A DNA stretch of 64,000 nucleotides from [Eubacterium] eligens ATCC 27750 (lineage in GTDB: Bacteria; Bacillota; Clostridia; Lachnospirales; Lachnospiraceae): contig NC_012778.1 of NCBI RefSeq assembly GCF_000146185.1, positions 2,032,501-2,096,500 on the forward strand, read 5' to 3'. The notes under the pieces were generated by a model, which saw nothing but the letters and a program-made list of their open reading frames with translations, was not told the origin of the DNA and made no database searches. Below, piece by piece: positions 45,396 to 58,550 of this stretch; positions within the stretch are counted from its first letter, which is position 1, and every line of letters begins with the position of its first letter. The translations under genes and the position numbers were made by a program.

Positions 45396-48182
45396 TTATC
45401 TGTCTTTAAAGTCTGCCTCTGTCAAGAATATAACATCACCATTCTCGCTTCTCTTCTTCTTAAGTCCGCCAAAGAATCTTCTTGATGCTCTTCTTTCAGA
45501 ATTGACAATTGCCTGATTGATAATTTCCTTGATATCATCAAGTTTAATATTATCATTCACGTTATGGAGTTTGTCAATCTTAAGATACAGTTCTAGTAAT
45601 GCATCATCATCAACCTCATACTGTCTCTTTCTTGCAAATCTCTTCGCCATCTCAACAAGTTCATTGACTGTATACTGCTTAAGAATAATTCTGTGATTAA
45701 ATGTGTTAGTTAATTCAGGATTGAAGTTAATAAGTACATTCATATCTGTATCTGAATCTTCGAATATAACTATCATTCTGTCAGTATCCTGCTCAAGACA
45801 GTTAAGAAGCTCGTTAATTCTCTTAGGCTGAATTGTTCCTGCGCCTTCTACAATAAGTGCAGTACCTTTAAGTCTTCCCATAGCCTTTGCAATTCCGCGC
45901 TGGTTTATACTCTCTCCTGATGTCTTTGCAATCTTTTTCTGTTTATCAGGATATAATGTATTGATTGCTCTAATAATTGTTCTTGCCAGATCTGTCTTAT
46001 CTGAACTTGAATTACCAGAAATGAGAATATTGCCCACTTTAGATGTATTAATCTGCATCTCATCATCGATTGTATCGAATAAATCAACAAGCTGCTCCTC
46101 AAGTCCCGGCATATCCCTGTACTTTCTGAATATCTTGGCAAGCTCTCCTGTAAGCTTCTTATCTTTTTCTTCTTCGACTTCATCGTTGTCTGTATTATAT
46201 TCTTCCATACTCTCCGGCTGTCTGTTCTGTCTAGTAAATGGAACTGTTTCTTCTGGCTCAACGCCCGCAGCTGCCTCTTGCTGGGCAACAGCCTCATCAC
46301 CTTCTTCTTTATTATTATCATCATTCATAATTGAATTGATATCTGATATCATAGATTCTGAAACTGTTGGAATCTGTGCTGTAACTAAAGGAATTTCTTC
46401 ACTTGGTTCCTCTGCATTAACTGGTGCCTTCTTAGTTACTGCTGCCGCAGCCTTTGCCGCTTCCTGCTCTAATCTTGCAGCAGCCTTACCTGTTCTGATA
46501 GCTAAATCCATTCTTGCTGAATCAACCGCCATCTGTGCAAGAGCAACCTGTTTTGCTTCCTCTTTGTCAATCTCTTTGCCTGCTACCAGAGCTTCTGCTT
46601 TTTTACGTTCAACCATTTTCTCATAGGCAGCGCTTTTTTCTTCTTTTTCGTCAAGATACCTCTCAAGCTCCGACTTAGAAAATTCTCTCGTATCCTGCTT
46701 ACCGTATTTCTCTTCCCTGACAGACTGCATCCATTCTGTTATATCCATCTGGCCTTCAATCTGGTCATCATCTGATGTCTCTGTTCCTTCAGTTTCATCA
46801 ACTGTATCAGTGTTCACAGATACTGCCATAGCATTTTCCTTAACAGGCTCTTTCTCTTCCTGCTTTTCATCCTGATGCTTTGAAGCTGGTACAAATGTCT
46901 TAACATCCTCATCTTCTTCGTCAGCTCTAAACAAATCACTCATATTAGCTGCAAGCTCTTCCTGAAGATTTCTTGTATCATAAAGGCTGTAATCCGGAAC
47001 CGGAACATTAATATCAATATTCTTTGCCTTTTCATTAATACGAGCCTCTGTCTCTCTTCTCTGCTCTGCCTCATCTTCTTTATTAATCTTATCATAATTA
47101 TTATCAAGCTTCTGCTTTGCATTTGCGATAAGCTCTTTTAATGAAAGATTTGCCTTATTAATTTCATTAGAAAATGCTTTTTCTCCAGCTTCACTTAAGG
47201 CTTCTGCAACCTCCGGCTTCTCAACCTGTGGAGTCTCAATCTTTCTTACACTGGCCTCCTGCTCCGACAGCTGACTTTTACTGTTATCACTGTTCTTGCT
47301 CAGTGCTTTCATAATAAACTCTTTAATATCATTATTCTGGTCATTCTGGACAAGATCCATTGAAAGAGGACCTTCCTCCTGCTGCCTGTCGTACTCTGGA
47401 ACATTAAGATGTACTTCCTTAGGTGTCTGTGCTGCCTTCTTAGGTAATTCAGATATCTTCTCATCTTCTTCCCTGAAAACATCCTCAACATCATCTCTCT
47501 TAAGATCTATTAACTCTTTCTGTTTAGCAAAAAGCTCTTCCTTAGCAGCCTCGATGTCATCCTTTCTCTTCTTCACATCCTCTAAGATACCCTTCTGTGT
47601 CTTCGTAAGCGTAACACCCAGCTGCTCCTTTAACTGTACTGCCTTTTCAACATATCTTCCATCCTGAAACCACAGAACAATATTATCACAAGTCTTGACA
47701 CACTCTTCTTTTCTTCCCGTCTTATAATAAAGAGTTGCAAGCTCATACATGTATTTCTCATCAATCTCATGATCCCTGTAGTCCTCTAAGATTCCTACTA
47801 GTTCATTATCAGATGCATTCTGCGCTTTCTTCAAATCATATAAAAGAATGAATCTGCTCACATCATGCTGTGATGTTCTGCTATATTCTTCATAAAGTTC
47901 ATTGGCATTTTCAAAATCTCCAACTTTAATAAAGAATTCTGTAAGCTTATAAACAAGCTTTCTTCCTCCAAGATTTCTATTATAAGCAAGAATTGCCATA
48001 TCTCTTGCTTCTTCATAATCACCAACTGCTTCCTGCACATTAATTGCGGTAGCAAGTGACTGCCAGTCCTTTACCTTTGACCAGTTAAGCTCTTTTGCAA
48101 TAGCTGCAGCCTCGGCATAATCCTTCTTGGCAGCCAGTTTCTTAATCTGGTCTATCTTAATTCCTAATTCATATTTATTCAT
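45396..48182 (-). CDS. TPR-like protein with C-terminal degenerate AAA domain
   Basis: A 928-residue protein. Residues 1-~190 are TPR-like helical repeats ([66 protein letters not shown]). A long acidic, Glu/Lys/Ala-rich linker follows to ~640. The C-terminal ~280 residues resemble a CbxX/ClpX-type AAA fold: [28 protein letters not shown] in the P-loop place, but with Asp for the usual Gly before Lys, ALIVEGAG in the Walker B place, and a later arginine-rich end. It is probably a scaffold rather than an active ATPase. It directly follows the jetC gene (131 bases) and has its own promoter. Confidence 0.7.
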
Positions 48183-48313: not shown

Positions 48314-51300
48314 TTACAAAAAATCAAATGTTGCCTGTTCGTAATCCATTCTCGTGTATTCCAATTCTGATTCCTTCGTGCTGCTGTAATAATCAACAAC
48401 CACAGTCTGCTGCCTTGAATCAACCAGCTTCTGGCCAAGTATGTAATTAACATCGAATCTTCCTGTAATAGCAGGAGTTGCACCTCTTGCAGGAACAATA
48501 AGCTGGACATGGTTAGTTGCAAGCAGCTTGAATATTGGCTCCCATATGTATATATCCTTTGCCGCACCGAATGGGTTATCTATGAATATTGTCTTACCCT
48601 CAACACCTTCATTACCTGAAGAATTCATATTAGATATGTAGTTGATAATCGCAATAAGGAACTGGATATATATACCCTGTGACTGTCCTGTTGAGCCAAC
48701 CGCTTCCTCATATCTTAAATAACGGCTCTGATCCTTGATTCTCTCTCTCTTATACAGATTAATTCTGATTGAATTCATATCTGTGACAATAACTGAGAAA
48801 AGTCTCTTCCATGACAGTCTGTTTCTTATATACTTGAGTCTTTCCGCAGGCTCTTTAAAACTTTCCGCCATAAAAACAGTTTCATCAATATATTCAGACA
48901 TCTTTTCCTTATATAATTCTTCCTTTATATAAGGAATCTGCAGACTGATTATTGCAATCTGTTCTCCGTCAAGATTGATATTAGACAACTGTGGCAGACG
49001 GTCAAGCTCAGTCTTAATGTTACTGCATGTCTGGATACAACGATTTTCGAAGTTATCCTTAATCATCTGCATATCCTCTATACCCTTGGCAATGCGGTCT
49101 TTTTCTAACTGTATAAATGTGTTCGTCTCATTTAACGATTCAATCATACTTCTGGTCTTAACCACATTTTCAGGAACATTAAGCGATATCCTTACTTCAT
49201 CTGCAAGCTCGACTGCATTAAATCCGTTAAGCAGGTCAATAAGTTTAGATTTATTCTTATTAAATTCATCAACCTTCTTATACTCTAATCTGGTAATTGA
49301 AGCATATTCTTTATGAACAGCCTCATATTCTGTAAGATTAGCTGTAATTCCCTGTGCATCCTCCGGACGGAATTCTTCTGGAACATGCATGCCCGCATCT
49401 GACACAATTCTTTCAAGGTCTTTTCTGCATACAAGTATGTCTTTTAATGAATCAGACATCTGTCTGCGTGTCTTTTCCTGAACCTTGGTGTTATCCTCTA
49501 ACTTCTTAATAAGTACCTTGTGCTGTGTAATGAATCCATCCGGGTCATCGCATGGGAATTCATTAAAGCTTCCATAATTATTCTCAATCTGGTTAATACC
49601 ATGCGCGATACTTCCCTCAAGTCTGTTAAGAAGTGCTTCCTGTGACTCAAGTTCTTCCCTTACAGCATCACTGCTCTTCACAAGATTATTAAGAGCATCC
49701 TTGGCATTCCTTAACTGCTGTGAACCTGCTGCCATAATCTCACCGGCTTCATACTTTGCCTTAATATCGTCAAATGTATAACCTCTGTACTCTATTGCAT
49801 CACGACATTTGTTCATAGATGCAGACAGATGGTTCATCAGCGCCTGCTTATCTGCAAAGTCACTGTTCTTCTGTGAAAGTGCTGTCTTTAATCCGGTGAA
49901 TCTGCTCTCAATTTCATCCTTATCAAGACGGTATGTATCATCATCGATTTCTATCGAAACATTTTCATCATAATAAGGTGCATACTGCTCCTCCCATGAC
50001 TTAATGATTTCCTCATATTCCTTTCTTGTACTGTCCTCAAAATCTCTTGCAGTATCATACTCAGAATTAGCAGAAGCTGCTGCCTCCTCGCACTCATATA
50101 TGCGGTTTCTTGCAGCTTCACTGTCTGCCTTAAGTGACTTTAACTTCTCATACTTCTTGTCTATAGAAGAATTCATATCAATAATCTGTGAAAGAATCCT
50201 GCATGAATTTTCTTTTTCTTCAATGTAAGCCCTTGTCTGTGAAAGCTGACCTGCAAGCTGTTCCTTTGCAACATTTAATGCACTTCTCTTCTTCTCAGCC
50301 TCAATAATTGCAGCCTCGCTGTCAGCAATCTTTAATCTGATTGCTTCTGCCTCGGACGCATCCACCTTTCCAGACGCAGCATTATATACAAGTGCAAATG
50401 TATAATCATTCCACACAAGCCCCATTCTGTCGGCCAGCTTTCCTGCCTGCGCCTTATGCGAATCAAGCTCCTCCTGTGCAAGCTTAATCTGTGTCTCAAG
50501 CTTTGCCTCATCACGAAGGAATGACATATCCTTTAATGCGAATACAATCAGGTCTTTGTTAATCTCTAACTTAGTATCAATAAGCACCTGCTCGCTTATA
50601 ACAGGATAAGCAGCCGCACCCTTGCCGAAATCCTTAAGCATCTCATCTGCTTTGATTCTCTCGAAATCGTTCTTTATTATAAATGCGTACTCAACGAAAG
50701 GCGTTCTCTTTAATACATCTCTTTTCTGTCCTGCATTCAGGGCTGCGAACCACTCATGACCCTCAACAACATCTGAACCATACTGGCTCTCAAGGTATTC
50801 CTTAAGCCTGTCTCTTTCAGGACTCTTACAGATATATGTTCCCTTTCTTGCATTGTCAATAAAGCTATCAAGTTCCTGGGCTGCCTTACACTCTTCTGTA
50901 TATTCACTGCGCATCTTCTGGTAAGTCTCAAGAATAACCGAAAGCATTGCCTCGTCATTATCTGCACTATATATTTCACGGATTTTGCCCATGCGCTCGT
51001 TATCAGCATTTCCAGCCTCATCAGCCTTTTCTAGCTTTTCTGACTGCTCTGTGAATATATCAATAAGTGCTTTATTGGCAGATATTGTCTCATTAAGTGA
51101 CATTAACTGCTGCTGCACATCATTGAATTTTTCGGACATTCTTGTCTCTTCATTCTTTAACAGTTCTTTATCGCTGAATGACTTGTCATATTCTTCAGAC
51201 GCATTTTCACATACGACAGTTCCTGCATCTGATAAAGCTGCTCCAAGCTGTGTCTGTAATTCCTGTATCTCATTCTCAAGATTATCCGAAAGACTGCCAA

Positions 51301-52747
51301 GACCTGCCGCCTCTTTGTCAGCATTTCTAAGGTTATCCTTAGCCTCTGATAATCTGACTTCAAGCGCCTTAACACGGTTAGCTGCTATATCAAGCTTTTC
51401 CTTAAGTCTTTTGGTCTCTGTCTCATAGAATTTTCTGTAACCTGCAACAAGTATCTTTAACTCTGCTGTTATATCCGTATCTTCTCTTAATCTGTTATCT
51501 ATCGCAATCTGAAGTCCTTTATAAGACTTCTCGTACTCTGCATAATCTTTATAATCACCCGCAGACTCCATCAAAGAAAGCTTTCCTCTTGCCTCTTCAA
51601 TTGCAGTATTCTTAAGTTCAAGTGCCTTTCTTGTCTCATTAACAAGGCTCTCAACTCCTGCCATCGAATTCTTTTCAGACATAACCTCTGCAACTGCTAT
51701 AGCTTCCTTCTCTTGGGCAAGCTCATCATACATCTTAGTGATAAGATCGTCCTGACTCTTAAGTTCCTTATCCTTCTTATCACTTTCCCGCATAGCAACA
51801 AGAAGCAGGTCATAAAGCTGCTTCTCTATCTCTTCTTTTCTGTTGTAAAATGCTTCATATGTCGACAGATATTCTTTAAAACTGTCGATAGCTGCAATCT
51901 GGCTGTCGTATGCTCCAAGCTGTGAGTGTTTCTTTGAAAGCTCCACTAACTTGTCCTTAATATCCATAAGAGTCTTAGCCATCATGCCCTCATCATTATC
52001 AACTGACAGCTTGTTATTGAAGGATTTCTGGATAATCTCCTCTATAAGCAGATCCTCAACAACCTTACGGCTTGTCTTATAATTTGACTCGAAATATGTT
52101 CTTACATGTCCCTCTGTCTTGTTAATTCCACGCACAATTTCCCATGCACTCTCATATATTCCGTAGTTACTTATAAAGCTCTGGTAATCACCTTTTCTGT
52201 CAAATATCTTAACAACATATTTGTACCCGCCCTTCTCAAGGTCACGAAGATAAGCCTTAAGTCCGTTATATGTAATTCTCTCTCCATTACTTACAAGTGG
52301 AAGATTCTTAATATCGTTATCGCCAAACTCCCTGTAGAATATGCAGTAATTAAAGTATTCAACACTTGCTGTCGGTGCAGCTGTCTGTTCCTGTCCATCC
52401 TGATTCTCATCGTCTGTGCCTCTTCCCTTTCTTGCACAGAAACCAGTTGTCATGAACCTGAAACCATCCTTCTGATAACATGGATCTAACTTCCACTCAA
52501 CCAAAGAATGAATACATGTATTACCGCTTCCCTGTCTGAAAAGCTTCTCAATAGGCTGCTTGTCATCAAGTGTGCAGTTAGGAAGCATATTCTGCATAAG
52601 AAGCAGCATAAGCAGACTCTTACCACCGCCATTGGCAAGGTCATATATAGTATTCTGGCAGTTGAAGCGCATCACGAAATCGTCGTACACCTGTGTACCG
52701 AAATTATATTTAACATTATTAACTCTGATTCTGTTAATCTGTGGCAT
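48314..52747 (-). CDS. jetC: SMC/MukB-like ATPase (Wadjet JetC-like)
   Basis: About 1477 residues from ATG 52747 (GGAGGACGCG upstream; the ATG at 52759 precedes that site). The N-terminal head has IYDLANGGGKSLLMLLLMQ with an NGGGKS P-loop at ~39-44, then ~1000 residues of long coiled coils with a central hinge-like globular part, and a C-terminal head with GSTGQSQGIYIQFL (ABC signature) and TIFIDNPFGAAKD in the Walker B place. The Walker B catalytic Glu appears to be Asn (D-N-P). This architecture is that of MukB/MksB/JetC condensins. It overlaps jetB by 14 bases. DNA loop extrusion or plasmid restriction are known family roles; which applies here is unknown. Confidence 0.85.
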   Translation of the reverse strand: MPQINRIRVNNVKYNFGTQVYDDFVMRFNCQNTIYDLANGGGKSLLMLLLMQNMLPNCTLDDKQPIEKLFRQGSGNTCIHSLVEWKLDPCYQKDGFRFMTTGFCARKGRGTDDENQDGQEQTAAPTASVEYFNYCIFYREFGDNDIKNLPLVSNGERITYNGLKAYLRDLEKGGYKYVVKIFDRKGDYQSFISNYGIYESAWEIVRGINKTEGHVRTYFESNYKTSRKVVEDLLIEEIIQKSFNNKLSVDNDEGMMAKTLMDIKDKLVELSKKHSQLGAYDSQIAAIDSFKEYLSTYEAFYNRKEEIEKQLYDLLLVAMRESDKKDKELKSQDDLITKMYDELAQEKEAIAVAEVMSEKNSMAGVESLVNETRKALELKNTAIEEARGKLSLMESAGDYKDYAEYEKSYKGLQIAIDNRLREDTDITAELKILVAGYRKFYETETKRLKEKLDIAANRVKALEVRLSEAKDNLRNADKEAAGLGSLSDNLENEIQELQTQLGAALSDAGTVVCENASEEYDKSFSDKELLKNEETRMSEKFNDVQQQLMSLNETISANKALIDIFTEQSEKLEKADEAGNADNERMGKIREIYSADNDEAMLSVILETYQKMRSEYTEECKAAQELDSFIDNARKGTYICKSPERDRLKEYLESQYGSDVVEGHEWFAALNAGQKRDVLKRTPFVEYAFIIKNDFERIKADEMLKDFGKGAAAYPVISEQVLIDTKLEINKDLIVFALKDMSFLRDEAKLETQIKLAQEELDSHKAQAGKLADRMGLVWNDYTFALVYNAASGKVDASEAEAIRLKIADSEAAIIEAEKKRSALNVAKEQLAGQLSQTRAYIEEKENSCRILSQIIDMNSSIDKKYEKLKSLKADSEAARNRIYECEEAAASANSEYDTARDFEDSTRKEYEEIIKSWEEQYAPYYDENVSIEIDDDTYRLDKDEIESRFTGLKTALSQKNSDFADKQALMNHLSASMNKCRDAIEYRGYTFDDIKAKYEAGEIMAAGSQQLRNAKDALNNLVKSSDAVREELESQEALLNRLEGSIAHGINQIENNYGSFNEFPCDDPDGFITQHKVLIKKLEDNTKVQEKTRRQMSDSLKDILVCRKDLERIVSDAGMHVPEEFRPEDAQGITANLTEYEAVHKEYASITRLEYKKVDEFNKNKSKLIDLLNGFNAVELADEVRISLNVPENVVKTRSMIESLNETNTFIQLEKDRIAKGIEDMQMIKDNFENRCIQTCSNIKTELDRLPQLSNINLDGEQIAIISLQIPYIKEELYKEKMSEYIDETVFMAESFKEPAERLKYIRNRLSWKRLFSVIVTDMNSIRINLYKRERIKDQSRYLRYEEAVGSTGQSQGIYIQFLIAIINYISNMNSSGNEGVEGKTIFIDNPFGAAKDIYIWEPIFKLLATNHVQLIVPARGATPAITGRFDVNYILGQKLVDSRQQTVVVDYYSSTKESELEYTRMDYEQATFDFL

Positions 52748-53450
52748 CGCGTCCTCCATTCATAAGTTCGGCAAATCGTCCTCTGTAATCATCAAAATAA
52801 TTCTCTATAAGACTTCTGAATCTGTCTGTCGGATAATATCTGTCCTGACTCTCAACTAAAAGTTCCTGCGCAACGCAGAAATTAAGCACAAGCTTTACCA
52901 TACCCGACTTGGAATTTCTTGCTGCTCTCGCTCCTGTCTGATCCTCTACTGTTGTCACCGGAAGCTCGTCCCATGTAAGTGCTATCTGCTTAAAGCTGTT
53001 CTCCTCAACCTCATCAAGCACAAGCCCTGCGCTCTTATCGACAATACCACCTGTTGTCTTATCAACATTTTTAATGATGTCCTCAAGTCTTATGAACTCA
53101 GCATAAGTTGAACTCATTGTATCTGAATAAAACTCTGTTATTATGTTGTAGATTATGAAATACGCAAGATATAATTCTTTGTTAACTCTTAATCCAAGTA
53201 CATTTCTTAATTCCTCATTAGAATATCCAAACACCCTGTTATTATCACCTGCACTCACATACAGACCATTGTTATATTCATATATGTTAAGATTAAGTTT
53301 CTTAAGTGACATATGAACGATGTCATACACTTCTGCATTATTATTGTATTCCTGATAAAGAGCTGCATTCTCGCCCCTCTCAGACACATTTTCCCCTGTG
53401 ATAAGCTTGGAAACTATGTCCAGCGCCTTATCTAGATTTCTATTCTCCAT
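52734..53450 (-). CDS. jetB: MukE/JetB-like condensin subunit (DUF6063-like)
   Basis: About 238 residues from ATG 53450 (AAAGGAAGCAC upstream; the longer frame overlaps jetA more). Winged-helix-like segments: ENRNLDKALDIVSKLITGENVS, DIVHMSLKKLNLNIYEYNNGLYVSAGD, and a C-terminal MVKLVLNFCVAQELLVESQDRYYPTDRFRSLIENYF that ends like MukE/JetB small kleisin-interacting proteins. It lies exactly between the kleisin-like and SMC-like genes with overlaps on both sides, the MukF-MukE-MukB order. Identity rests mainly on operon position and fold pattern. Confidence 0.78.
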   Translation of the reverse strand: MENRNLDKALDIVSKLITGENVSERGENAALYQEYNNNAEVYDIVHMSLKKLNLNIYEYNNGLYVSAGDNNRVFGYSNEELRNVLGLRVNKELYLAYFIIYNIITEFYSDTMSSTYAEFIRLEDIIKNVDKTTGGIVDKSAGLVLDEVEENSFKQIALTWDELPVTTVEDQTGARAARNSKSGMVKLVLNFCVAQELLVESQDRYYPTDRFRSLIENYFDDYRGRFAELMNGGRDATD

Positions 53451-54969
53451 GTGCTTCCTTTCGTACCAATTCAACATCTGCCATCATACAGTTATCCGAC
53501 AATATAACCTGCCCGCCAAGCCCTTTTCTTATTGCAAATGTAAAGCTTTCTGTATCTTTAAAACCTTCCCCTAAGTATGCATCAAGAAATGTATCTTCTC
53601 CCGCATCACCGCCAAGCTGGTACTCATCCTTCTGGCACAGATTAACAAAGAAAGAGAAGAAATCTGCATTTCTTAAAATCTGCTCACCATACGCCCTCTT
53701 CATTGCATCTGCAAACTGACCGAGTGTTATAATGTCCGATTTTTTCAAACACACAATGAGATTTTTCATAAGGAATACATAATTATCCTTAATTCTCTTT
53801 TCTTCAATCTCATCTTCGAATTCAATATCTTCCGGTCTTTCATTGCTTATAAGCTCTTTCTCCTCATATCTTGGAGGCTTCACCATAAGCGCATCATCAA
53901 TGCTTATCAGGTCAAATGTCTTTCTTATGTTCGGCTTTAGAAGCGGACTTAACATTGTGACTAATATATCTGCATTGTCCCTCTTAATCATATCTGAAAG
54001 TGCCGATGTGAAATCCATATGGCTTCTTAATCTGCCAAGCTTGGCGCGTCTTACTGCGTCATCGGTCATCTTCTGCATTTCTGTACAATCCTTTAACAGC
54101 TCGCTGTGCCTGTTCATTGCCTGCTTAAGCTGAGTCTCAAGACTGTATATTTCGTTCATCGTCCTGTAATAGCCTTCGCCTGTGCTGCCCGATGCATTAA
54201 GCTTCTCGATTGATTTTGCAATAAGGTCACGGTTCTTCTTAAAAAGCTTTTCTTCATCATCAAACCATTTCATTCCTGTCTTGACGAATTCCTCATAAGC
54301 CTCTATTCCTGCAAATACATCGCCCGACAATATTGTCAGCACTTCATTCTTCTTTAACTTAAGGCGGTTGACCTCTTCGTTAATTCTTTCAACCACTTCA
54401 ACTCCGCCACGGAAGTTCTGTGAATTAATCATTTTTTCAAGAAGAAGCTGGGATACGCTTATCCTGCTCTCGTCCTTGATTTCCTTGGTATCAAGATAGA
54501 ATTCAATAGCATCAGGGCTTATCGAATACCACACGGTATTGTCTCTTATTGAACTCTCGATTATCTTCATCCTTGAAACTCTCTTTTTCCTGTCCACCGG
54601 ATCAAAATACGAGAATTCAAATGGCCTGCCATCATTCTTTATCTTGTCAAATATATAATCAGCAATCTCCTTGCTGTCCTGTTCATTCAAATCAAGCCCG
54701 AAATCTCTCTTAAGTATCAGCCTTAAGAAATCGAGATATTCGGGATATGTAACATCCTTTTCCTTAAAATTATTCTCCTCTATAAAGAAACGGAGAACCG
54801 CCATAACTATATAGCCCATATCAAGGATTTCGTATTTGCCATCCTTGAAATTAGAAAATGATGTGTCTATCAGTCTGAAGAAAGGATAATATTTCTTCAG
54901 ATTAAGCATTCGTTCACGGTGATCCGATATGATATCACCTGTCATATTCTCTGCCATAGTATTCTTCAT
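53440..54969 (-). CDS. jetA: MukF/JetA-like kleisin subunit
   Basis: A 509-residue protein. The N-terminus has a winged-helix region (LKKYYPFFRLIDTSFSNFKDGKYEILDMGYIVMAVLRFFIEENNF and DAIEFYLDTKEI), the middle a long helical bundle with coiled coils (VVERINEEVNRLKLKKNEVLTIL; TMNEIYSLETQLKQAMNRHSELL), and the C-terminus a second wHTH. This order is typical of MukF/MksF/JetA kleisins that bridge the SMC heads. The start at 54969 is uncertain; ATG 54957 is an alternative. It lies 82 bases after recR on the same strand, in the same direction as dnaX-ebfC-recR. Confidence 0.82.
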   Translation of the reverse strand: MKNTMAENMTGDIISDHRERMLNLKKYYPFFRLIDTSFSNFKDGKYEILDMGYIVMAVLRFFIEENNFKEKDVTYPEYLDFLRLILKRDFGLDLNEQDSKEIADYIFDKIKNDGRPFEFSYFDPVDRKKRVSRMKIIESSIRDNTVWYSISPDAIEFYLDTKEIKDESRISVSQLLLEKMINSQNFRGGVEVVERINEEVNRLKLKKNEVLTILSGDVFAGIEAYEEFVKTGMKWFDDEEKLFKKNRDLIAKSIEKLNASGSTGEGYYRTMNEIYSLETQLKQAMNRHSELLKDCTEMQKMTDDAVRRAKLGRLRSHMDFTSALSDMIKRDNADILVTMLSPLLKPNIRKTFDLISIDDALMVKPPRYEEKELISNERPEDIEFEDEIEEKRIKDNYVFLMKNLIVCLKKSDIITLGQFADAMKRAYGEQILRNADFFSFFVNLCQKDEYQLGGDAGEDTFLDAYLGEGFKDTESFTFAIRKGLGGQVILSDNCMMADVELVRKEAHGE

Positions 54970-55051: not shown

Positions 55052-55648
55052 TTAAAGCTCGGTTCTTCCGTCTAATGCTCTTAAAAGTGTAACCTCATCG
55101 ATATATTCAAGATCGCCGCCGACAGGAACTCCGCTTGCAATTCTTGTCACCTTAATTCCTGTTGGCTTTATCATTTTGCTTATGTACATTGCTGTTGTCT
55201 CACCCTCCAGATTGGAATTAGTTGCGATAATAACCTCGTCAACATCTCCCTGAAGCCTTACCATAAGCTCCTTTAATCTGATATCAGCCGGTCCGATTCC
55301 AAGCATCGGGCTTATTGCTCCATGAAGAACATGATATACGCCCTCGTACTTTCCTGTCTTTTCATATGCCGCCATATCTCTTGTATGTTCAACTACCATA
55401 ATTGTCTTATGGTCTCTTTTCTGGTCGCGGCATATCGGACACAGTTCTTCATCTGTAAGTGTAAAACACTCCTTACAGTAGTGAATATGCTGCTTTGCAT
55501 CAATCATTGTGTCTGCAAGGCTCTTAACCTCAGACTCAGGCATGTTTATAATGTGAAATGCCAGGCGCTGGGCACTCTTCGCCCCAACCCCTGGTAATCT
55601 CGACAATTCTTCAATTAATCTGTTAATATGACCACTGTAGATGTCCAT
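55052..55648 (-). CDS. recR: Recombination mediator RecR
   Basis: A 198-residue protein with the HhH start ([20 protein letters not shown]), the four-Cys zinc finger ([16 protein letters not shown]), and the Toprim domain ([52 protein letters not shown]), then the terminal [26 protein letters not shown]. RecR acts with RecO/RecF in loading RecA at gaps. It adjoins ebfC with the start immediately at its stop, the classic dnaX-ebfC-recR cluster. Confidence 0.97.
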
Positions 55649-55998
55649 TAGAATAAGCCTCCGCCTAATCCTCCAAGTCCTCCAGTAATCTTAGCCATCT
55701 GTGCCTGTGACTCTTCTTCGCATTTTCTTAAAGCTTCATTAGTAGCTGCTACGATTAAGTCCTCAAGCATCTCTACATCATCTGGATCAACTGCTTCAGG
55801 GTCAATCTTAACCTTAGATACTTCTCTCTTACCTGTAACAGTTACCTCAACTACTCCGCCGCCTGCTGTCGCACTGAATTCCTTATTCTCAAGCTCTGCC
55901 TGCTGCTCCTCCATCTGACGCTGCATTCTCTGTGCCTGCTTCATCAGATTATTCATATTACCAGGCATTCCTCCTGGAAAACCACCTCTTTTAGCCAT
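55648..55998 (-). CDS. ebfC: EbfC/YaaK nucleoid-associated protein
   Basis: A 116-residue protein with the family pattern: a Gly/Met-rich start, [71 protein letters not shown] (read as a continuous set of short motifs), and a Gly-rich tail. The family binds DNA as a dimer. Its ATG overlaps the dnaX stop (TAATG), and recR begins at its end. Length is normal. Confidence 0.95.
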
Positions 55999-57635
55999 TA
56001 TATAAGTTCCTCCTTATCATCTACTTCTATATCTATGCCTACGAGTTCCTTAAGATCCACGAATCTGCTGTGGAAATCTTCATCATCGTTAAGCTTAGTC
56101 ACTTTAATTGAAACCCTTACTCCTGTTCTCTCCTCAATTACATTCTCTATGCTTTCCATAACTTCCTGTCTGCTGAGTGAATTATAGGCACTAAGTGATT
56201 CTACCATAATTTCAAGACTAATTCCATCTTCTGCTAATGTAACATGTGCAGCCTGTAAAAATGTCTGATTAACAGGGTCATCTATCGTTGCTATGATATC
56301 CTTCCAGCCTGCCGCTATTGCCTTAACATCTTCTGGAACTGCATCATATACACGCTTAACTACAGGCTTCTTTGAGGTCTGCTGCTGTACTGCTGCCTGA
56401 CTGCCCGCAGCGCCACCAGCCATACCTGCTGTGCTTACAAGTTTACCGCTTTTAATATCATCAAGTACTTTCTGTAACTGCCCTTCAAGCATTGTCACAC
56501 GGCTTACAACATCGCCGATATCCTGACTGTTATCCATTGCCGGACGCATCAGCTTTATAAATGTTATCTCTGTCTTAACTCTTTTCTGTGTAGAAAACTT
56601 CAGGTCATTCGATAATTCTGACAACACTCTTATATAATACATAAGTGTATCTATATCTACATTCTGTGCATCTTTCTTCAGGTCTTCAAGATTATCTGCT
56701 GATACTTCTATTACGTCCTCAATTCTTTCTGCATCTTTGGTTGTCTTAATAAGAAGCAGATTTCTAAGATACCATATAAAGTCTGTAACAAATTGTGAAA
56801 GGTCTCTTCCCTGCATTATCAGGTCTTCCATAAGTGACATGCACACAGCAACATCTCCTGACAGGATTGTTGAAAGCATTTTACTAAATACCGCCGTGTC
56901 AACTGCCCCAAGAACATCTAATACATTTTCATACTTAAGGTCTTTCCCCAGATAGAATGCCAGACACTGGTCTAACAGACTTAACGCATCTCGCATAGAA
57001 CCATCTGCAGCTTTGGCAACATATTTTATTGCCTTATCCTCTACATTCAGTCCCTCCGCCTTCATAAGTTCTGACAGCCTGCCTGCAATTGTCTCTATTG
57101 TTATCCTGTGGAAGTCATATCTCTGACATCTTGAAAGGATTGTAATAGGAATCTTCGCCACTTCTGTAGTAGCCAGTATAAATATTACATATGCCGGAGG
57201 TTCTTCCAATGTCTTTAACAATGCATTGAACGCTCCTATTGAAAGCATATGAACCTCATCAATTATATAGACTTTGAATCTTCCTTCTGTCGGTGAGTAC
57301 TGTACTTCTTCTCTTATCTGTCTTATATTATCGACACCATTGTTAGATGCCGCATCTATCTCTATTACATTCATGCTTGTTCCAGCCGCAATCGCCTTGC
57401 ATGTCGGGCACTCTCCACAAGGGTTGCCGTCAACCGGATGCTCACAATTAACTGCCTTCGCAAATATCTTGGCAACTGATGTCTTACCAGTTCCTCTTGT
57501 TCCGCAGAACAGATATGCATGGCCTATTCTGTCTGCATTAATCTGATTTCGCAGAGTTGTTACTATTGTATCCTGTCCTTTTACATCATTGAAATTGTCT
57601 GGACGCCATTTTCTGTATAAAGCCTGATATGACAT
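55998..57635 (-). CDS. dnaX: DNA polymerase III gamma/tau subunit
   Basis: About 545 residues from ATG 57635, chosen for GGGAGGTAACC upstream; 20 extra codons read upstream lack a site. AAA+ clamp-loader: [16 protein letters not shown], Walker [22 protein letters not shown], the zinc Cys set CGECPTCK, Walker [18 protein letters not shown] sensor/arginine finger. The C-terminal tau part with an Ala/Gln-rich linker is present. It follows SRP RNA and precedes ebfC and recR, as in Bacillus. Confidence 0.96.
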
Positions 57636-57865
57636 GGTTACCTCCCTCTGCGCTGTCTTTACTTTCGCAGCCCTTAACCTCATGCGTAAAACCATCCGCC
57701 TCCGGCGTCTGCCGCTGCTTCGCAGCTTATGTTTTACTTATGTCGGTTAAGTTCCTGCTTCGCAGGATAATTTAGGAATATCATACAGTTTCTTACATGC
57801 AAGCATGACGAATCTGCCTGACATTCCTAAATTAGCTGCGACGAGTAACATTTTAATAACAAAAG
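57636..57865 (-). other. Structured intergenic leader between SRP RNA and dnaX
   Basis: The 230 bases contain several potential hairpins on the minus strand: TTTAGGAAT...ATTCCTAAA, CCTGCGAAGCAGG, and GTAAAACAT...ATGGTTTTAC. It holds the SRP RNA 3' T-run and the dnaX ribosome site but no gene. Confidence 0.5.
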
Positions 57866-58129
57866 CCGTGCGTCCGGCTTCGAACTGATATCCACAGACG
57901 TTACCGATGCAGTTAGCTCGATCCAGGCACCCTTTCAACACCCGGAAGATTCCACTTAATGCTGCTTCATTCCTGACCTGACATGGTTCGTGGATTTCCG
58001 TCGTGAAAGACCCAAATGTCAACACCACTTACACCGGGCTGCTCCATAAATATCAGCCCTCTGCCGAACATCACCCCTGCTATAGCGGATTGCAGGTTCA
58101 AGGTGCCGCTACTACCCCGGCTGCACGGT
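57866..58129 (-). ncRNA. ffs: Signal recognition particle RNA, large Bacillus/Clostridium type with Alu domain
   Basis: About 264 nt. The 5' CCGTGC pairs with the 3' GCACGG. The Alu domain shows GGGGTAGTAGCGGCACC and CCTGCAATCCGCTATAGCA; the linker has AGTGGTGTTGACATTTGGGTC; helix 8 reads CCATGTCAGGTC-AGGAAT-GAAGCAGCATTAAGTGG with its GGAA tetraloop closed by A-U instead of C-G. The 3' end is followed by TTTTGTTATT. Neighbour dnaX matches the Bacillus scr-dnaX order. Ends are set to within a few bases. Confidence 0.95.
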
Positions 58130-58135
58130 ATTTCA

Positions 58136-58165
58136 ATTATACTTGTTACATATGCCTGTTGTCAA
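58136..58165 (-). promoter_or_regulatory. Strong sigma-A promoter of SRP RNA
   Basis: TTGACA (58160-58165) and TATAAT (58136-58141) on the minus strand with an 18-base spacer; initiation about 7 bases downstream coincides with the SRP RNA 5' end at ~58129. Confidence 0.9.
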
Positions 58166-58212: not shown

Positions 58213-58550
58213 TCTTTGGACTTTCTCTTGCCTTCACACTGCTTTAACGTCCAATTTCGCGTGCCGACTTCCCGGGATTGGACTTCCACACGGCTTACCA
58301 CTGCTTCAACGTCCAATCCGTCATGCTTTGGCGCTCTTTTTGGACTTTCTCTGTGACTCACACTGCTTTAACGTCCAATTTCGCGTGCCGACTTCCCGGG
58401 ATTGGACTTCCACACGGCTTACCACTGCTTCAACATCCAATCCGTCATGCTTTGGCGCTCTTTTTGGACTTCCTCTGTGACTCTCTCTGCTCTAATGTCC
58501 AATTTCGCGTACCGGCTTCCCGGGATTGGACTTCTACACAGCTTACCATC
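58213..58550. repeat. 124-bp tandem repeat with nested GTCCAA/TTGGAC hairpins, ~2.7 copies
   Basis: Units start their GTCCAATTTCGCGT segment at 58249, 58373 and 58497, exactly 124 bases apart. Within each unit GTCCAAT...ATTGGAC flank ~21 bases including CTTCCCGGG, and GTCCAATCCGTC...TTTTTGGAC flank a second hairpin. This is GC-richer than surrounding DNA. It fills the gap between the SRP RNA promoter and the end of the editing deacylase gene (425 bases); no gene is seen there. Confidence 0.9.

Follow-up and report, generated by a model that had tools for sequence, protein, structure and literature searches.

The closest described relatives of the jetABC operon analysed here are the Wadjet type III defence system (JetABCD) and the condensins MksBEF and MukBEF. 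According to the available parts of one review (PMC10586767), most Wadjet work has been done on type I, MukBEF apparently replaced SMC-ScpAB, and MksBEF of Pseudomonas aeruginosa likely arose from JetABCD by loss of JetD and helps to organise the chromosome; the same text speculates that MukBEF and MksBEF descend from defence systems. Elsewhere, the accessible portion of a Hi-C study, in which the word nuclease is absent, reports that MksB of Borrelia burgdorferi promotes long-range chromosome contacts (PMC10406323), and Bacillota have been surveyed with the Jet proteins of B. cereus Q1, with JetD in focus as far as the excerpted text goes (PMC12287153). The operon considered here occupies positions 48314–54969 of a 64,000-nucleotide stretch of contig NC_012778.1 from [Eubacterium] eligens ATCC 27750 (the whole stretch is called the window). 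It probably specifies a Wadjet type III complex that has lost its nuclease JetD and whose JetABC part was kept as a vertically inherited, accessory second condensin beside SMC.

The operon consists of three genes:

jetA, 53440–54969, minus strand: 509 amino acids (aa), type III kleisin (PADLOC JetA3 PDLC00560, E 4e-236; predicted fold)
jetB, 52734–53477, minus strand: 247 aa, type III KITE subunit (PADLOC JetB3 PDLC00571, E 8e-114; Pfam PF19539 (DUF6063), E 2e-47)
jetC, 48314–52759, minus strand: 1481 aa, type III SMC ATPase (PADLOC JetC3 PDLC00581, 2043 bits, E 0)

By these PADLOC matches the three proteins are homologues of Wadjet type III JetA, JetB and JetC, in that order; the product of jetB we take to be a KITE subunit from what is known of the family. 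The genes overlap by 38 nucleotides (nt; jetA/jetB) and 26 nt (jetB/jetC). A sequence-only reading of the window had proposed a JetABC/MukFEB-like operon, and profile hidden Markov model searches bear it out: the JetA3, JetB3 and JetC3 matches are far above chance and do not place the genes in unrelated families. The homology to Wadjet type III is full length for all three proteins, and the order A-B-C, often with overlaps, is shared. MukBEF has the same kleisin-KITE-SMC gene order; however, the Pfam families MukB, MukE and MukF gave no match to the three proteins at E ≤ 1, and SMC is kept here. The predicted fold of JetA (pLDDT 79, pTM 0.39) ranks MukF chains first (7nz2, E 4e-5) and the Escherichia coli Wadjet JetA eighth (8as8, E 5e-3). 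Because the pTM is low, the TM-scores of 7nz2 and 8as8 do not exceed 0.4 and CorA chains follow closely in the ranking, the fold points only weakly to a kleisin type. Searching the JetA and JetB profiles and JetC against solved structures returned no Jet, Mks or Muk relatives.

The nuclease subunit is missing not only from the operon but from the genome, which comprises 2,831,389 bases in three contigs (two of them of 626,744 and 60,455 bases). The Pfam family PF09983, which is broader and takes in other JetD types, has no match anywhere in it; PDLC00592 gave a single 26-residue match at E 0.12; and a type III JetD profile, built from 38 JetD proteins, found nothing at E ≤ 0.01. The last profile was run on 56 genomes, comprising 48 JetD-less genomes (the 34 of the family survey described below, window included, and 14 further Lachnospira) and 8 JetD-positive controls. 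All 8 controls matched at E ≤ 6.2e-76, including those whose JetD was absent from the profile (G105, G222, G150, G057, G304 and G147; the JetDs of G545 and G603 were in it), whereas 38 of the 48 JetD-less genomes had no match and 10 had weak partial ones (best E 2.7e-6). At E ≤ 0.001, a PF09983 protein is absent from 24 of the 34 surveyed JetD-less genomes, the window's among them. The claim of the sequence-only reading that JetD is lacking thus holds genome-wide with three profiles, the window's open reading frames (ORFs) having been scanned only in part for other Toprim proteins. Because the defining nuclease was not found, we do not term the locus a Wadjet system, though its genes belong to the Wadjet type III families.

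A JetB search of 250 Lachnospiraceae genomes gave matches in 55, 54 of them above the cut-off; 53 loci were fetched and the window added (L069, below the cut-off, held no jet genes at its locus and was dropped). Among these 54 type III loci, jetD is adjacent in 19, where it lies directly upstream in the order D-A-B-C; it is 9.5 kb away in 1 and missing in 34, including the window. Outside the family jetD is adjacent in 27 of 29 type III loci, so the absence of JetD is a clade trait; these 29 were the further loci above the cut-off among 393 sampled genomes of the class, which included some Lachnospiraceae again. Within Lachnospira the JetD-less class occurs in 17 of 22 genomes (12 of the 13 of good quality), and all 17 loci read recR-jetA-jetB with no jetD (window, L036, L154–L164 and L223–L226; two of them end at a contig boundary within or past jetC). 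A jetD in the same operon of close relatives, which would have counted against the proposal, is therefore absent at the jet locus of every one. We found no description of a JetD-less type III clade in the literature as far as its text was accessible, including PMC10123090, PMC10512200, PMC10197239 and PMC12786226, and a prior report is possible.

A few other loci stand apart. The set with the distant jetD (L228:2069-14871, from G147, the same as L016) carries it upstream of jetA on the same strand. G257, a Lachnospira genome that is 59% complete and carries the JetD-less operon, has a second, JetD-positive set on a 4.3-kb contig (L227:1-4282), possibly contamination. Finally, one genus of another Clostridia family holds a JetD-less jetABC (L142:992-8404 and L143:9160-16368) followed on the same strand by a gene for a SNF2 ATPase of 937 and 936 aa, respectively, with a bacterial SNF2-associated domain; the same genomes also carry a separate JetD-positive type III set (L141, L138). 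In the JetC tree, L142/L143 represent a separate loss of JetD.

The JetD-less operon has descended with the chromosome. In a JetC tree of 91 rows (FastTree, midpoint root; nine near-duplicate loci and fragments below 1,100 aa left out), the family's 46 JetD-less rows all group in a single clade (support 100) set among JetD-positive rows; with long branches and a midpoint root, the nearest neighbours of this clade are unsure. Distances of JetD-less JetC follow those of the unlinked chromosomal SMC in 28 genomes (Mantel r 0.755, a value reached in 0 of 5000 permutations), with 17 of 25 splits shared. None of 13 strongly supported JetC splits conflicts with SMC in the JetD-less class (26 genomes), as against 6 of 7 (16 genomes) and 10 of 11 (20 genomes) in JetD-positive systems. 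JetA and JetB taken together behave alike: conflicting strong splits number 0 of 13 (28 genomes) and 4 of 4 (16 genomes), respectively, and 88% of JetD-less quartets are the same as in SMC, as against 49% of JetD-positive ones. Thus JetD-less jetABC is vertically inherited, far more so than the JetD-positive systems of the family. The midpoint root of the SMC tree, a weakly supported fork, has JetD-less genomes on either side, which suggests that jetABC was present in the Lachnospiraceae ancestor and was then lost in places. In a DnaX+RecR tree of 34 rows, presence and absence of jetABC takes 2 changes. SMC itself is present in the window's genome (1115 bits) and in 34 of 34 JetD-less genomes (in G031 split over two contigs).

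The ATPase motifs are kept as well. JetC of the window has Walker A NGGGKS, ABC signature STGQ and Walker B IDNPF; among JetD-less rows, STGQSQG and DNPF occur in all 43 that hold the region and NGGGK in 44 of 44, while the signature of JetD-positive rows is NSGGE, NSGAE or SSGAE (20 of 20). All 63 type III rows with the region have D-N in place of the usual D-E after Walker B. Since both classes show it, D-N reads as a type III trait and not as a sign of decay. For jetABC, dN/dS is 0.04–0.10 in three pairs with relatives, and the operon is under purifying selection.

JetABC most likely works like MksBEF of P. aeruginosa, acting on the chromosome as an SMC motor that extrudes loops. MksBEF is likewise a nuclease-free kleisin-KITE-SMC operon with a resident SMC alongside; it differs in belonging to another phylum, and the nuclease loss here is a separate one, in type III. 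The MksB of B. burgdorferi also stands beside SMC but lacks MksE and MksF; the operon here does encode their counterparts, JetB and JetA. According to the model, a mobile JetABCD defence system would have lost jetD once, either before the Lachnospiraceae arose or in an ancestor among them, and the JetABC motor would have been retained and then inherited vertically, as an accessory condensin additional to SMC. From what is known of the family, the JetA kleisin and the JetB KITE subunit would bridge JetC dimers, and the complex would be loaded on DNA and use ATP hydrolysis to extrude loops. With JetD gone, completion or stalling of a loop would have no cutting outcome, and the net effect would therefore be long-range DNA contacts or chromosome or plasmid segregation instead of restriction. 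The sequence-only reading had suggested a chromosomal condensin role or one with a different effector; of that interpretation, a JetD-less JetABC at a stable chromosomal place is supported, the condensin role gains from the vertical inheritance and purifying selection, and RecR as the effector is not supported.

Several observations weigh against this model. A resident defence system that works through some other effector would likewise be compatible with the vertical inheritance and purifying selection, and in 10 of the 34 JetD-less genomes a PF09983 protein is encoded elsewhere and could act in trans there. Agreement with SMC is not complete: one strongly supported JetC split of the 28-genome comparison is not in the SMC tree, and in 16-genome JetD-less subsamples 0 of 7, 1 of 9 and 0 of 9 strong splits conflict (1 of 25 in all). 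Conversely, SMC and the JetD-positive systems remain correlated, if less strongly (Mantel r 0.455, 0.499 and 0.597; permutations as high in 38 of 5000, 53 of 5000 and 23 of 3000), for which reason their history is mixed, not random. Moreover, only 34 of 250 genomes of the family carry JetD-less jetABC, which makes it dispensable in most genera and implies frequent loss. Finally, the usual position of the catalytic glutamate is N in type III JetC, which makes ATP hydrolysis less than certain.

The coexistence of JetD-positive and JetD-less type III systems in one family provides a natural before-and-after comparison, in which loss of the nuclease goes with a switch from largely horizontal to vertical inheritance. 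Several features set the locus apart from its Wadjet type III relatives: no jetD in operon or genome, STGQ in place of the other three signatures, a descent that follows SMC where that of JetD-positive systems conflicts with it, and, for the window, a place beside housekeeping genes. The strength of the JetA3, JetB3 and JetC3 matches means that gene-by-gene annotation may call a defence system that is not there. The idea is testable in culture, as named Lachnospira species are among the relatives. A broader proposal, which we regard as rather unlikely, is that JetABC with a regulator constituted a third kind of bacterial chromosome SMC system in the Lachnospiraceae ancestor, after a mobile machine that cuts plasmids had been converted, a single time, into a vertically inherited condensin, and that JetABC motors have repeatedly been re-tooled by exchange of an output module, as with SNF2 at L142/L143. 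The regulator would be the product of the gene that is next in the run, beyond the operon:

TPR-AAA, 45396–48182, minus strand: 928 aa, 131 nt past jetC; TPR, long charged linker and CbbX/EccA-like AAA domain

Both the sequence (E 3e-21 to CbbX) and the fold of the AAA domain relate it to CbbX/EccA. One alternative to a stand-alone condensin is that JetABC and TPR-AAA form a four-part machine in which the AAA domain replaces JetD as the output or remodels or unloads the SMC complex. It draws on the gene order: of the 32 JetD-less loci that could be assessed, 24 have TPR-AAA past jetC in the same orientation (11 of these outside the recR-linked clade), as against 0 of 20 JetD-positive loci, related genomes being counted here and not independent events. 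Besides the window, the 24 comprise 22 fetched loci and G166, where a contig boundary divides the operon (L050/L112); L048 and L062 fall outside the 32 at contig ends. In the 22 fetched loci the gap after jetC is below 350 nt in 14 and 747–1,797 nt in 8, with no more than a single intervening same-strand ORF of at least 90 aa. TPR-AAA is missing beside the JetD-positive loci even with a TPR-profile match elsewhere in each of the 20 genomes (weak in G207, E 1.1e-27). Against it, the TPR part is matched in 241 of the 250 genomes, most of them without jetABC; the P-loop is degenerate in the window (GNSSSDKT), in many relatives and in the jet-less L103; TPR-AAA directly follows recR with no jetABC between in 6 of 40 TPR-AAA neighbourhoods, so the linkage may be an inherited position; and jetABC persists in 8 genomes without an adjoining TPR-AAA (2.5–4.5 kb past jetC viewed). 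Among these 8, an AAA part accompanies the best TPR match within the protein in 2 and in the next ORF in 1; 4 have none and 1 was unreadable, so jetABC is able to last in a genome that lacks an intact TPR-AAA. We consider the four-part machine unlikely.

By its sequence and distribution the TPR-AAA protein is at most a partner or regulator, no demonstrated substitute for the nuclease; as a regulator or adaptor of JetABC it is the strongest candidate. A jet-specific fourth subunit, suggested by the first loci, was given up in favour of a linked partner, given the 241 genomes with the TPR part. With the P-loop intact in other lineages and degenerate in that of the window, an apparent pseudo-ATPase form would have arisen within the Lachnospiraceae. 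Nine JetD-less genomes were read again; in five of them the TPR protein is diverged, and neither it nor the adjoining sequence has an AAA match. A hidden JetD after jetC in the loci without TPR-AAA was likewise considered and rejected, the genes there being unrelated by eye (malic-enzyme-like, MoxR-like and radical-SAM-like). Loss of a JetD-docking residue was considered for JetB position 22 (window numbering), which is aromatic in 42 of 47 JetD-positive and 17 of 47 JetD-less sequences, with L016 counted as JetD-positive; this difference is confounded by phylogeny and is no more than a hint.

A second alternative is that the complex still defends against plasmids or phages through a trans-acting or unrelated host nuclease, whether the PF09983 protein, RecR or another. 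The family is that of Wadjet, and the 10 genomes with a PF09983 protein elsewhere would suit such a role; the other 24, including the window's, have none at E ≤ 0.001. The gene for RecR lies as follows:

recR, 55052–55648, minus strand: directly upstream of jetA; Pfam RecR domains and Toprim_4

The gap between recR and jetA is 82 nt. The sequence-only reading had named RecR as a possible effector and asked whether the linkage is conserved in relatives; it is in all 17 Lachnospira loci, but across the family survey no more than 13 of the 34 JetD-less loci have recR ahead of jetA, and these 13 are one clade in both the SMC and the JetC tree. RecR is thereby ruled out as an obligate or general partner, and the effector proposal is not supported. 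In L035 the recR-jetA gap is 1,088 nt, with an opposite-strand ORF inside. A defence role also sits poorly with an inheritance far more vertical than that of JetD-positive systems of the same family, and with the presence in the genome of the 60,455-base contig beside the main one. We take this contig to be a plasmid of E. eligens ATCC 27750; 2 kb of it, compared with a plasmid collection from which near relatives may be left out, gave no match. On these grounds we judge continued defence to be quite improbable. A decaying Wadjet remnant, for which the missing JetD would speak, is very improbable indeed and in the main refuted by the low dN/dS, the ATPase motifs in 43 of 43 JetD-less JetC rows, the presence in 17 of 22 Lachnospira genomes and a diversification that tracks SMC.

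Upstream of recR lie further genes on the same strand:

ebfC, 55648–55998, minus strand: ORF, name taken from the sequence-only reading
dnaX, 55998–57695, minus strand: ORF, name taken from the same source
large signal recognition particle (SRP) RNA, 57866–58128, minus strand: Rfam RF01854, 183.7 bits

The order dnaX-ebfC-recR is kept in relatives. The whole minus-strand run reads SRP RNA, dnaX, ebfC, recR, jetA, jetB, jetC, TPR-AAA and a gene that we take by eye to encode transketolase. ORF and Rfam analysis agreed with the coordinates, strand, overlapping three-gene order, recR spacing and SRP RNA as first described. A scan of the window listed no minus-strand terminator-like site between recR and jetA (82 nt) or between jetC and TPR-AAA (131 nt), and for this reason recR-jetABC-TPR-AAA may possibly be on one transcript. 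Just upstream of the SRP RNA, a promoter match of 12/12 lies at 58165–58136 (the scan overall gave 50 sites against a chance expectation of 45.3). Also upstream of it a terminator-like hairpin is present twice (58319 and 58443), and ORF translations at 58300–58460 repeat, which suggests a direct repeat there. In four other loci a protein of about 760 aa is encoded directly upstream of jetABC (L013:7674-9953, L031:10876-13212, L042:11351-13666 and L048:6088-8367); that of L031 has a weak cyclic-nucleotide-binding match, below the cut-off.

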